DNA of 64,000 nucleotides from Kutzneria kofuensis (GTDB taxonomy: Bacteria; Actinomycetota; Actinomycetes; Mycobacteriales; Pseudonocardiaceae), in the NCBI RefSeq assembly GCF_014203355.1, contig NZ_JACHIR010000001.1, positions 806,001-870,000 on the forward strand, written 5' to 3'. How positions within the stretch are numbered: the stretch's first letter is position 1; every line of letters starts with the position of its first letter. A program made the translations under genes and the position numbers. The notes beneath the pieces are model-generated. The model had not been told where the DNA came from. It made no database searches and saw only the letters and a program-made list of their open reading frames with translations. Shown here one piece after another: positions 43,359-46,670 of this stretch.

Positions 43359-44758
43359 TCAACGGCGAGCGACTGTCCGGTATGGACGGTCTCACGGCCG
43401 ACGTCGTCGACCCCGCCACGGGCGAGGTCAACGGCAGTGCTCCCATCTCCGGACCGTCCGATGTGGACAAGGCGGTGCGGGCCGCCGCGGCGGCGTTGCG
43501 CGCCTGGCGGCGCAGCACGCCGCGCGACCGCGCGCACGCGCTGCTCGGGCTGGCCGCCGCCGTCGAGGACAACGCGAAGCGGCTGGCCGACGCCGAGTGC
43601 GCGGAGACCGGCAAGCAGTGGCACGTGGTGCTGGACGAGGAGATTCCGGCGAGCGTGGACGCCCTGCGGTTCTTCGCCGGCGCCGCGCGCAACCTGGAGG
43701 GCCGGTCCGCCGGGGAGTACGCCAGCGGGCTGACCTCGACGATCCGGCGGGAGCCGGTCGGCGTGTGCGCGCAGATCACGCCATGGAACTACCCGCTGCT
43801 GATGGCCGTGTGGAAGATCGCGCCGGCGGTGGCCGCCGGCAACACGACCGTGGTGAAGCCGGCCGAGACGACGCCGTCGAGCACGGTGCTGCTGGCCGAG
43901 CTGGCCGGCGAGTACCTGCCGGCCGGCGTGGTGAACGTGATCTGCGGCGACCGGGAGACCGGCCGGCTGCTGGTCGAGCACCCGGTGCCGGCGCTGGTGT
44001 CGATCACCGGTTCGACCCGGGCCGGCATGCAGGTCGCCGCCAGCGCGGCGGCGACGCTGAAGCGGACCCACCTTGAGCTGGGCGGGAACGCTCCCGTGAT
44101 CGTGTTCGACGATGTCGACGTCACCGACACCGCGGAGAAGATCGTGGCCGCGGCGTTCTACAACGCCGGGCAGGACTGCACCGCCGCCAGTCGTGTTCTC
44201 GTCCATGCCGACGTGCACGACGAGCTGGTGGAGGCCCTCACCAAGGTCGCCTCGGCCCAGCGGACCGGTCGCGGGCCTCGCGAGGCGGCGGACTTCGGGC
44301 CGCTGAACAGCCAGGCGCAGCTGGACCGGGTGACGGGGCTGGTGTCGAGGCTGCCGGCTGCGGCCGTGGTGCACTGCGGCGGGCACCGGGTCGGTGACCG
44401 GGGGTTCTTCTTCGCCCCGACCGTGATCTCCGGGGTGCGCCAGGACGACGAGATCGTGCAGGAGGAGGTGTTCGCCCCGGTCATCACCGTGCAGTCGTTC
44501 GGCACCGAGGAGGAGGCCGTCGAGCTGGCCAACGGCGTGCCCTACGGCCTGGCGTCGTCGGTGTGGAGCGAGAGCCACCGACGGGTGCTGCGGGTGAGCT
44601 CGGCGCTGGACTTCGGGTGCGTGTGGGTGAACACGCACGGGGCGCTGGTGTCCGAGATGCCGCATGGAGGGTTCAAGCAGTCCGGGTACGGCAAGGATCT
44701 CTCCGGCTACGGCTTCGAGGACTACACGCGGGTGAAGCATGTGATGAGCGCGGTTTGA
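43343..44758 (+). CDS. Aldehyde dehydrogenase, probable guanidinobutyraldehyde/aminobutyraldehyde type
   Basis: 471 residues. The NAD-binding and catalytic motifs are complete: ITPWNYPLLMAVWKIAPAVA, VKPAETTPSSTV, ITGSTRAG, the active-site Glu in LELGGNAPV and the nucleophile Cys in YNAGQDCTAASR, then EEVFAPVI. The GQDCTA form is typical of aminobutyraldehyde/betaine aldehyde dehydrogenases. It overlaps the ThDP gene by 16 bases and has a GGAGG site inside it. In the proposed pathway it oxidises 4-guanidinobutyraldehyde to 4-guanidinobutyrate. Confidence 0.88.
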   Translation: MAHNVINGERLSGMDGLTADVVDPATGEVNGSAPISGPSDVDKAVRAAAAALRAWRRSTPRDRAHALLGLAAAVEDNAKRLADAECAETGKQWHVVLDEEIPASVDALRFFAGAARNLEGRSAGEYASGLTSTIRREPVGVCAQITPWNYPLLMAVWKIAPAVAAGNTTVVKPAETTPSSTVLLAELAGEYLPAGVVNVICGDRETGRLLVEHPVPALVSITGSTRAGMQVAASAAATLKRTHLELGGNAPVIVFDDVDVTDTAEKIVAAAFYNAGQDCTAASRVLVHADVHDELVEALTKVASAQRTGRGPREAADFGPLNSQAQLDRVTGLVSRLPAAAVVHCGGHRVGDRGFFFAPTVISGVRQDDEIVQEEVFAPVITVQSFGTEEEAVELANGVPYGLASSVWSESHRRVLRVSSALDFGCVWVNTHGALVSEMPHGGFKQSGYGKDLSGYGFEDYTRVKHVMSAV

Positions 44759-44787
44759 CGTCGCGGTTTTTGGGTGCGGGTCGCGTG

Positions 44788-44897
44788 GATTTGGTGTGGA
44801 GCCTCTGGACGATGGCACTCAGGGCTGTTTAGGGGCAGGCAGAGCCTGCCCTGAGTCGCTGCCAATTGTATGCCATCGCCCACCTCCACACAAAATC
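44788..44897 (+). repeat. Left 110-bp hairpin repeat flanking the HNH gene
   Basis: The unit is near-identical, in inverted orientation, to 46361-46470 (2 differences in 110). It is also self-complementary: its ends GATTTGGTGTGGAG and CTCCACACAAAATC pair with one mismatch, then GGACGATGGCA pairs with TGCCATCG.CC, and the centre holds CTCAGGG/CCCTGAG and GGCAGGC/GCCTGCC palindromes. Flanking GCGTG and CACGC extend the stem by 5 pairs. It begins 30 bases after the aldehyde dehydrogenase stop and could also end that transcript. The rest of the gap to the HNH gene (44898-45071) is C-rich with no gene. Confidence 0.9.
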
Positions 44898-45020
44898 CAC
44901 GCTTCGCTCATTGATCACCCGCCCCGCTTCCCCATCCGCTTCCCCGCCCCGGCTTCCCCCCATCCGCTCCCCGGTCGCCAGAACACACAGCGCCCGAAGT
45001 CAGCGATTATGCATGAAACA

Positions 45021-45065
45021 ATCACCCATTAGTGATTCGAGTTCGATCTTCACCGAGCGTATTCT
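45021..45065 (+). promoter_or_regulatory. Possible promoter and operator of the HNH gene
   Basis: TATTCT (45060-45065) is a fair -10 box, with TTCGAG 18 bases before it as a weak -35; the transcript would start at or near the ATG (45072). An ATCAC/GTGAT inverted repeat (45021-45025, 45032-45036) touches the -35. Confidence 0.35.
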
Positions 45066-45071
45066 AGAGGC

Positions 45072-46217
45072 ATGAAAGAACTCACCCTCGACATCGAGAA
45101 CAAGGAGCCCTGCGGGGCCCTGTTCGACCTGTTGGCGAGGGTGGACATTCCAGGCCTCTCCGATCAGGAGAAGGTCACCGCCTACATTCTGGCCGGCAAG
45201 ATCGCCGCATTCGGCCACGCCATCCAGCTCGAAGTCCTCCACCACGTCGACGACCTCACCGAACTGGCCATGGCCGGCCACGAACCCGAGCGGGCGTTGG
45301 GACAACGCAAGGAATTCAGCCGGGTGGTCGAGACACTGCCCCGCCTGTTCGCCCAGCTGCGGCGCGGCGAGATCGACCAACGACGACTGGAAGTCGTCGA
45401 CGAGCGGGTCGGCCATCTGCCCGATCAGGCTCTGATCACCCAGGTCGAGGACTCCCTGGTCGAGGTAGCGCCGGGATTGAACCGCAGCCAACTCGCCCGC
45501 CAGACCACGAAACTGGTCGCCCTGGCCGACCCCGACGGCCACGACCAGCGCTGCCACAAGGCCAAGTTGGAACGCCGAGTCGAATTCACACCGCTACCCG
45601 ATGGGATGGCCCAACTCAAGGCCATCCTGCCCGCCGTTGACGCCCGCATGGCCTACGACCTGCTCAACGCCGACGTCACCGACCTGCCCAAAGACGACCG
45701 GACCACCGACCAGAAGCGGGCCGACGCCTTCCTCGACCGCTTCCTGGCCAACACGAAGGACCGGCAGGTCCAGGTCCACGTCACCATCCCCATCGAGACC
45801 CTCATCGGCCTGACCAAAGAGCCCGGCCTGCTGGACGGCTACGGCCCCATCCCCGCCGAACTCGCCTGCGAACTGGCCATGCAGGGCCCCTGGCGCGGCA
45901 TCCTGCTCGACCAGTACCGCCACGCCATCGCCATGAGCACCGCCAAGTACCGGCCCACCGCCCCCATGCGGGAGATGGTCAAGGTCCATGACGGCGGCCT
46001 CTGCACCGCCCCCGGCTGCACCAGCCCCATCCGCGAACTCGACCACGTCATCCCCTGGCCCAAAGGCAAAACGAAAGCCACCCAACTCAAGGGCCTGTGC
46101 TCCTGGCACCACCACCGCAAACACGACAACTACACGGTGACCCTGGATTCCGACGGCACCACCACCTGGACCACACCCCAGGGCCGGGTCCATACCACCC
46201 GACCCCACCAATACTGA
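45072..46217 (+). CDS. DUF222 domain HNH endonuclease (REP13E12-type)
   Basis: 381 residues. The N-terminal ~270 residues form the helical DUF222 region (for example RALGQRKEFSRVVETLPRLF, then RRGEIDQRRLEVVDERVGHL). The C-terminal HNH domain has zinc cysteines 311, 316 and 343 (CTAPGC and GLCSWHHHRKHD) and the catalytic His325 in LDHVIPW. At the middle position, where the family usually has Asn (ENLQ.LC), this protein has Gln338 (TQLKGLC). The family is abundant in actinobacteria, often in repeated copies, with no proven function. It is the only gene between two inverted hairpin repeats. Confidence 0.9.
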   Translation: MKELTLDIENKEPCGALFDLLARVDIPGLSDQEKVTAYILAGKIAAFGHAIQLEVLHHVDDLTELAMAGHEPERALGQRKEFSRVVETLPRLFAQLRRGEIDQRRLEVVDERVGHLPDQALITQVEDSLVEVAPGLNRSQLARQTTKLVALADPDGHDQRCHKAKLERRVEFTPLPDGMAQLKAILPAVDARMAYDLLNADVTDLPKDDRTTDQKRADAFLDRFLANTKDRQVQVHVTIPIETLIGLTKEPGLLDGYGPIPAELACELAMQGPWRGILLDQYRHAIAMSTAKYRPTAPMREMVKVHDGGLCTAPGCTSPIRELDHVIPWPKGKTKATQLKGLCSWHHHRKHDNYTVTLDSDGTTTWTTPQGRVHTTRPHQY

Positions 46218-46360
46218 CCCGCCCCCGCCCCCATTCTTTGACAACTCCACAGCGAACGAAACCCGCCCGCCGACTCATCGAACACCACGCCCCCAATCCG
46301 ATGGCGCCCCTTCGCCACCCAACAACCGCCACCCCACCACCCTCACCCCATACTTGGGCC

Positions 46361-46470
46361 GATTTTGTGTGGAGGTGGACGATGGCATACAATTGACAGC
46401 GACTCAGGGCAGGCTCTGCCTGCCCCTAAACAGCCCTGAGTGCCATCGTCCAGAGGCTCCACACCAAATC
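46361..46470 (-). repeat. Right 110-bp hairpin repeat flanking the HNH gene
   Basis: Inverted copy of 44788-44897. In this copy the inner GGACGATGGCA/TGCCATCGTCC stem is perfect, and the outer extension is TGGGCC/GGCCCA instead of the left copy's GCGTG/CACGC, that is, different bases but still paired. Confidence 0.9.
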
Positions 46471-46670
46471 GGCCCACCCACGCCGCTGAATTCGCATCCA
46501 CCCAACACCGCTAACGCCGCCAGCACCACCAACCACACACCACCCCAAACACCGCTATACCAAGCCACCCGACACACGAAAACCACCACCCAACCGCCTA
46601 ATACGCCGACACCTCCATCAAAACCGACCGAGACCCACCCGGACAAACAAATCCCAACCCCTAGCAAACC

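Follow-up and report, generated by a model that had tools for sequence, protein, structure and literature searches.

Inverted bulged hairpins bracket a DUF222-HNH nuclease gene in a probable multi-copy mobile element of Kutzneria

The window analysed here is a stretch of 64,000 nucleotides from the 10.4 Mb genome of Kutzneria kofuensis, in which a single intact DUF222-HNH gene lies between two inverted arms of 110 nt each that are 98% complementary (Table 1). A preliminary description had reported two nearly identical inverted units around one intact HNH gene, which is borne out, and with the left unit as query BLAST recovers the right 110-nt copy at an E value of 9.0e-49. The encoded protein belongs to DUF222 (PF02720; E 9.7e-22, 78.1 bits against a cut-off of 24.4 in Pfam) and carries a C-terminal HNH stretch which matches phrog_333 (E 6.1e-7) and retains the conserved C, DH and H columns. 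No Pfam family besides DUF222 is found in the protein at E 0.001, and Pfam and phrogs together reveal only the DUF222 and HNH families in the window element, with no HUH, Y1, RuvC or DDE transposase domain. Among PDB sequences the HNH part, and only this part, is matched best by IscB (E 0.006), a protein which has RuvC; this match says little about mechanism.

Table 1. Features of the element, in positions of the 64,000-nt window
Feature	Position	Strand	Basis
Left hairpin (core 44788-44897 plus end-specific outer stem), about 124 nt	44781-44904	+	Repeat search, folding, model R1, covarying stems
5-nt bulge CCTCT, 5' side, between stems 1 and 2 of the left hairpin	44802-44806	+	Read from sequences and folds
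DUF222-HNH gene (381 aa); no other gene is evident in the element	45072-46217	+	ORF, Pfam, phrogs
HNH nuclease motif region: C311, C316, D324-H325, H346, H351	46002-46124	+	Conserved columns, phrogs match
Right hairpin (core 46361-46470), an inverted copy that differs from the left one in its outer stem	46354-46477	-	Repeat search, folding, model R1
Inserted DNA left of the hairpin, approximate ends, missing at empty sites	44762-44780	.	Empty-site comparison
Inserted DNA right of the hairpin, C/A-rich tail, approximate ends, missing at empty sites	46479-46655	.	Empty-site comparison

The 110-nt unit had been described as the folded structure in its own right, and folding does exceed that of shuffled sequences (z -6.2 for the left hairpin as DNA and z -8.2 for the right hairpin as RNA), but the true hairpin is slightly larger and extends past the core into an outer stem of its own, 8-9 nt long, at each end. 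On the left GCGTGGAT pairs with ATCCACGC and on the right GGGCCGAT pairs with ATCGGCCC; left and right differ in these outermost 8-9 nt, yet pairing is kept within each end. The layout of each hairpin is a long outer stem of 18 pairs with one mismatch, then the 5-nt bulge on the 5' side, a 10-pair second stem and, innermost, a hairpin at the centre. Model R1, whose training set included the window left hairpin and the right hairpin of a sister copy, scores the left hairpin at 129.9 bits and the right at 129.8 bits. Chance or artefact as the source of the hairpin pair was rejected on the BLAST copies and on the folding against shuffles. Read by eye, the 5' bulge is CCTCT in most Kutzneria copies, CCCTC in most copies of a further Kutzneria genome (G004), and CCCTT, CCCCTT and ACCCC, respectively, in G013, G063 and G035, which represent three further genera of the family.

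Among 111 Kutzneria hairpins 2873 of 2923 pair cells are standard (98.3%), with swaps such as GC to CG or TA, the structure having been predicted from the same alignment on which it was scored. A divergent set of 17 hairpins has 95.7% of its cells paired and double changes at 13 pairs, and its covariation score is reached by none of 500 shuffles, with slid controls at 40-46%. A set of 16 sequences with G004 hairpins gives 94.4% paired cells and 18 double-change pairs, again with no shuffle out of 500 as high. Helix 3 is paired in 73.5% of cells in the set of 17 and, in the set of 16, where it is the central hairpin, in 83.0%, and the number of further pair types is not above that of shuffles (80/500 and 120/500, respectively). 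Comparison between copies shows base pairing to be maintained through compensatory change, which places the hairpins under structural constraint.

BLAST of the left unit against its own genome yields 73 matches that resolve into 17 pairs in opposite orientation. The element measures 1.55-1.79 kb in 14 of the 17, and the other three are longer (2.7-3.8 kb) and interrupted, with broken or partial right copies. Seventeen of the 19 PF02720 genes of the genome sit inside hairpin pairs, and at the two that do not (L197 and L198) no hairpin is found with R2, a covariance model that includes G004 sequences. The copies fall into two subfamilies of 6 and 11 members which are 67-73% identical to each other. 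The closest pairs in this genome are only 97-98% identical, so that no fresh transposition has been caught. An in-frame TGA interrupts two of the 17 element genes, and the L038 protein is missing its normal C-terminus. The elements L043 and L044, located 14 kb apart on C2 of this genome, are 98% identical and have an in-frame TGA in both genes. Roughly 1.3 kb of identical sequence (100% over 1286-1370 nt), probably a second, recently active repeat, is found next to or within the right end of each of the elements L032, L039 and L045.

The mobility that the preliminary description had proposed can be judged from empty sites. In all five other Kutzneria genomes that have both flanks of the window site side by side (G001, G002, G004, G005 and G006; a sixth, G003, gave the right flank only) the site is empty and the aldehyde dehydrogenase gene directly adjoins the region upstream of the methyltransferase gene, the intervening 1.9 kb being present only in the genome of the window, and the element has therefore inserted. 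A second site holds an element in G005 but none in K. kofuensis, where 54 nt lie between the flanks. Unlike a DDE insertion sequence, the element has no transposase domain and shows no target-site duplication at these two insertion sites, which were aligned by eye to empty ones across diverged species. The inserted DNA exceeds the hairpins, with a G/T-rich left tail and a C/A-rich right tail. In the first 50 nt of the tails of 40 paired elements the keto fraction on the left averages 0.75-0.81 and the C+A fraction on the right 0.72-0.82, against a background keto fraction of 0.496 (sd 0.080); as coding sequence dominates this background, some of the skew may be that of spacers. The tails differ among the copies of K. 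kofuensis and are not conserved. A 22-nt period is clear around gene-less hairpins of G035 and not in the Kutzneria tails, and an origin of the latter as decayed tandem arrays is not claimed.

Of 60 genomes searched by BLAST, that of K. kofuensis among them, five contain the unit; all five are Kutzneria, and the unit is not found by BLAST in the Kutzneria genomes G003 and G004. Of the 60 DUF222 loci fetched from Kutzneria, 25 have the gene spanned by an inverted pair of 25 nt or more; as the pair at L137 (39 nt) fails to fold into a hairpin, 24 loci remain, all of which encode proteins close to that of the window. Five more close relatives in this set of loci (L109, L123, L125, L146 and L147) have the upstream hairpin only, as judged by BLAST. 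Applied to 36 loci of relatives, a set that partly overlaps the 60, R2 finds both hairpins at 21, the upstream one alone at 10, the downstream one alone at one and neither at four (L185, L186, L151 and L152). Among the ten upstream-only loci L177 stops at a contig end, and at L184 BLAST detects a further partial copy some way off. The L151 and L152 proteins of K. sp. CA-103260, 66% and 65% identical to that of the window, are its nearest relatives found in another species, and the hairpin is undetected on either side of their genes. The more distant DUF222 clades among the 60 fetched loci have no such hairpin pair, and many DUF222-HNH genes are without one.

Where the hairpin does occur in Kutzneria it is tied to these genes, since 140 of the 143 R2 hairpins listed have a DUF222 gene within 2.5 kb, a zone that makes up 0.7-2.5% of each Kutzneria genome, and the three solitary ones among the matches listed include one near a contig end. 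R1, which was built from window-clade hairpins, detects the hairpin upstream of nine of ten fetched G004 genes, which belong to more distant clades (L138 is missed), and for G004 every one of the 22 matches listed precedes a DUF222 gene on its own strand. At L131-L137 of G004, degenerate tandem repeats of 21 nt (GCGAGTCCCG...) and 22 nt (GTGTCGGACGTT...) adjoin the conserved hairpin, some 1 kb upstream of the gene; such arrays are present at seven of seven DUF222-HNH genes examined, from two clades. The L119 and L124 proteins of G006 are alike save for a block at about 275-320, between DUF222 and HNH, which looks exchanged. A phage or plasmid origin was rejected, as no relative could be confirmed on viral contigs and the DUF222-like proteins of three plasmid records are only 27-31% identical.

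Beyond Kutzneria the hairpin occurs by DUF222 genes in the three further genera, in an arrangement that is single, an inverted pair or, in G035, mostly solitary. In G013, which R1 matches at E of about 2e-6, an inverted pair is present at four of four loci by BLAST and both copies are found by R2 at three of four; the hairpins of G035 and G063 were found with R2. Forty-one of the 45 hairpins of G063 have a downstream DUF222 gene on the same strand, some of these being fragments, and of the remaining four one lies by a short DUF222 fragment (E 1.3e-4, below the cut-off) and another by a similar fragment with no Pfam match. In G035 seven of 21 hairpins stand beside a DUF222 gene, six of them downstream and inverted and one upstream, and one gene has both, which is the single inverted pair in this genome; the other 14 have no DUF222 gene in the 3.1-4.2 kb fetched. 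The gene-less hairpins of G035 (L279, L283, L289, L291, L301, L303, L305, L307 and L309-L314) display a 22-nt repeat period on both flanks in mirror orientation. The association of the unit with DUF222 genes, which had been left for checking, holds in Kutzneria and differs in G035; with the empty sites, both conditions that the preliminary description had named as refuting turned out in its favour for the Kutzneria matches open to checking. The copies in G035 bear on the reading in which two MITE-like hairpins form a composite that another transposase mobilises, with the DUF222-HNH gene carried along as a passenger: the gene-less copies of G035 are of the kind it would produce, but the tight association in Kutzneria and G063 and the want of any transposase-like gene in the window element make it hardly credible.

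Whole-genome scans with R2, which covered 147-150 first-look candidates per genome, gave no hairpin in five genomes without DUF222, in G003 or in ten genomes with DUF222; as the same scans missed G013, which was found by locus scans, the zero counts in other genomes carry little weight. In the survey loci R1 and R2 have no match below E 0.03 other than in G013, G004 and G063, with weak matches at E 0.03-0.9 (G012, G014, G083 and L240) left out of the counts. A survey of loci outside the hairpin clade, which are not independent as several copies come from one genome and some are duplicates, found palindromes above 30 shuffles upstream at 26 of 78 and downstream at 6 of 78 (2.5 expected), and an energy scan gave z < -3 upstream at 21 of 100, downstream at 6 of 97 and inside the gene at 4 of 101. 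In other genera, further DUF222-HNH clades (L199, L213/L267 and L215/L263-L266) are preceded by unrelated strong palindromes with 21-31 nt stems, and at L266 there is one on either side of the gene.

The position of the hairpin upstream of a same-strand gene, seen by eye at the 41 G063 loci with a gene and in all listed G004 matches, raises the possibility that it is transcribed and serves as an RNA partner of the HNH protein, like the omegaRNA (HEARO RNA) upstream of IscB, with the second copy as a second RNA gene or an end. The IscB matches of the HNH part agree with this, and HEARO RNA is likewise placed in the 5' UTR in the relevant passage of the cited source (PMC9755519). The likeness to HEARO/IscB is thus that of a structured element upstream of an HNH protein gene, and differs in that no RuvC is found, nor any other Pfam domain beside DUF222, and in that many copies have a far-end hairpin too. 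Rfam, HEARO (RF02033) included, gives no match at E 1 in window positions 44700-46600 and none at E 0.1 in six related loci, and a known RNA family was rejected for the stretches tested. Stems 1 and 2 of the 17 hairpins contain eight A-C against one G-U, the wrong way round for RNA from the gene strand, although helix 4 is opposite, with no A-C and five G-U. Inverted far-end copies with end-specific outer stems also fit DNA ends better, and an RNA partner is on balance unlikely, if still to be reckoned with.

In G005 the hairpins are far more conserved than the silent positions of the genes they enclose. Among 15 elements of this genome left hairpins differ from one another by 0.4% and right hairpins by 1.8%, against 24.6% at four-fold sites of the same genes, and recent duplication was rejected as the source of the near-identical hairpins on account of this divergence of about 25%. 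The difference is less marked in other groups: in the two subfamilies of K. kofuensis left hairpins differ by 3.1% and 1.4% against 14.2% and 17.7% at four-fold sites, and in G006 by 11.4% against 32.5%; over four groups the four-fold divergence of copies within a genome is 14-33%. The values for G001 were unreliable and not used: codon position 2 diverges there as much as position 1, and L179 goes out of frame towards its end. Divergence by codon position in G005 (0.035, 0.023 and 0.193) implies that the protein is under purifying selection as well. This selection, together with a site (S1) that by eye looks like a gap between convergent genes, could be accommodated if the host maintained the hairpins as insulating terminators or as regulatory structures belonging to one of its gene families. 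Such a role is very improbable in view of presence and absence that vary between species, covariation that preserves a complex bulged shape, and the gene-less hairpins of G035.

Between two and four species have an element at each of four shared sites, with G006 at S3 matching on the left side only, and the elements there are not orthologous between species. Identity between element proteins (51-72%) is lower than between the flanking proteins (70-92%) in ten of ten comparisons, two of which gave no flank match on one side. At the L034 site the spacers are unequal in other species. In the portion of the tree listed both subfamilies of K. kofuensis and the copies of G005 and G006 cluster by genome rather than by site, and the two G002 copies fall apart from each other. 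It follows that elements have been replaced at old sites or that the same sites have been hit again, and random transposition alone would not predict such sharing by non-orthologous elements. Left and right hairpins are moreover about equally alike between elements and within one, and L037 combines a left hairpin of one type with a right hairpin of another, 28% apart. All of this could result from homing, in which the HNH protein cuts slightly different resident hairpins and these are overwritten with the incoming element during repair, so that the hairpins are homogenised. Empty sites, however, show new insertion too, and in the sequences viewed the variable sequence starts immediately outside the hairpins, a pattern more like selection on the hairpin than like conversion tracts. 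Homing or replacement as the full account is accordingly rated as improbable.

IS200/IS605 has a Y1 transposase, and the element differs from it in that no Y1 HUH transposase TnpA is found and in that its end hairpins are inverted copies of each other. Shared with it are subterminal folded ends and small size (in part PMC8266576, in the passages available). REP/RAYT, described in the cited passages as inverted hairpin doublets (PMC3116915) with a stem bulge that in E. coli REP is required for activity (PMC8266576), resembles the element in that a nuclease gene is flanked by bulged hairpins in inverted doublets, with gene-less copies in one genome. Unlike REP/RAYT, the element encodes a DUF222 and HNH protein in which no HUH domain is found, has a hairpin of about 120 nt as against 20-50, and keeps nearly all of the listed Kutzneria hairpins with the gene. 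No GTAG stands directly before the stem in the 17 left ends of K. kofuensis, where most copies read GGGTCGCGTGG. REP13E12 of mycobacteria is DUF222-HNH according to the passages available of PMC10589994, which cites Gordon 1999, and gene conversion among REP13E12 copies is reported for M. tuberculosis in those of PMC13061034; its likeness to the element rests on membership of the same Pfam family and on multiple copies. The passages available of the REP13E12/DUF222 literature mention repeats in passing, describe no hairpin ends and give no function for DUF222. A literature search for Kutzneria with HNH endonuclease returned no paper, and one joining HNH, hairpin and insertion sequence, with all six terms required at once, returned none.

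The anatomy of the undescribed mobile system that had been suggested at the outset, with REP/RAYT logic and an HNH enzyme, thus stands in the 17 pairs, the empty sites, the association and the covariation, and the action of the protein on the hairpin is the part to be read conditionally. Comparison between genomes identifies a real multi-copy mobile DNA element of soil actinobacteria, inserted and tied to the DUF222-HNH family. Hairpins that are tied to one gene family, variable in sequence and fixed in shape form the pattern of a selfish element whose only protein recognises its folded end, and the presence of hairpin copies at both ends points to a nuclease that recognises DNA in this folded form. 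The preferred reading, to which we assign a probability of roughly 0.6, is that the protein acts on the hairpin as DNA and spreads an autonomous selfish element of a hairpin-plus-nuclease type; it has been weighted slightly lower because of the close relatives without hairpins. Binding, cutting, strand and route of copying are what we infer within it. It is proposed that the unit comprises the left hairpin, the DUF222-HNH gene and the inverted right hairpin, and that the protein, probably through its DUF222 part, would recognise the conserved bulged hairpin in folded DNA that is single-stranded at replication or extruded as a cruciform. The HNH part would then nick the DNA at or near the bulge, and the element may be copied to a new intergenic place by host replication or repair.

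More tentatively, and short of an even chance, DUF222-HNH proteins, which are abundant orphans in actinobacteria, may include a new mobilising class, in which an HNH nuclease reads a bulged DNA hairpin at either end of its own gene, which it moves or copies, having arrived at the logic of REP/RAYT independently and without HUH, with one covarying hairpin family in at least four genera. DUF222 genes, often in many copies, are found in 39 of 60 sampled genomes of the family and in 100 of 121 of the order, and a conserved structured partner offers a direct and testable substrate for their proteins. If the HNH nuclease acts on hairpin DNA, this would be a new chemistry for hairpin-ended mobile elements, and if it acts on RNA, the hairpin would be a new kind of nuclease RNA.
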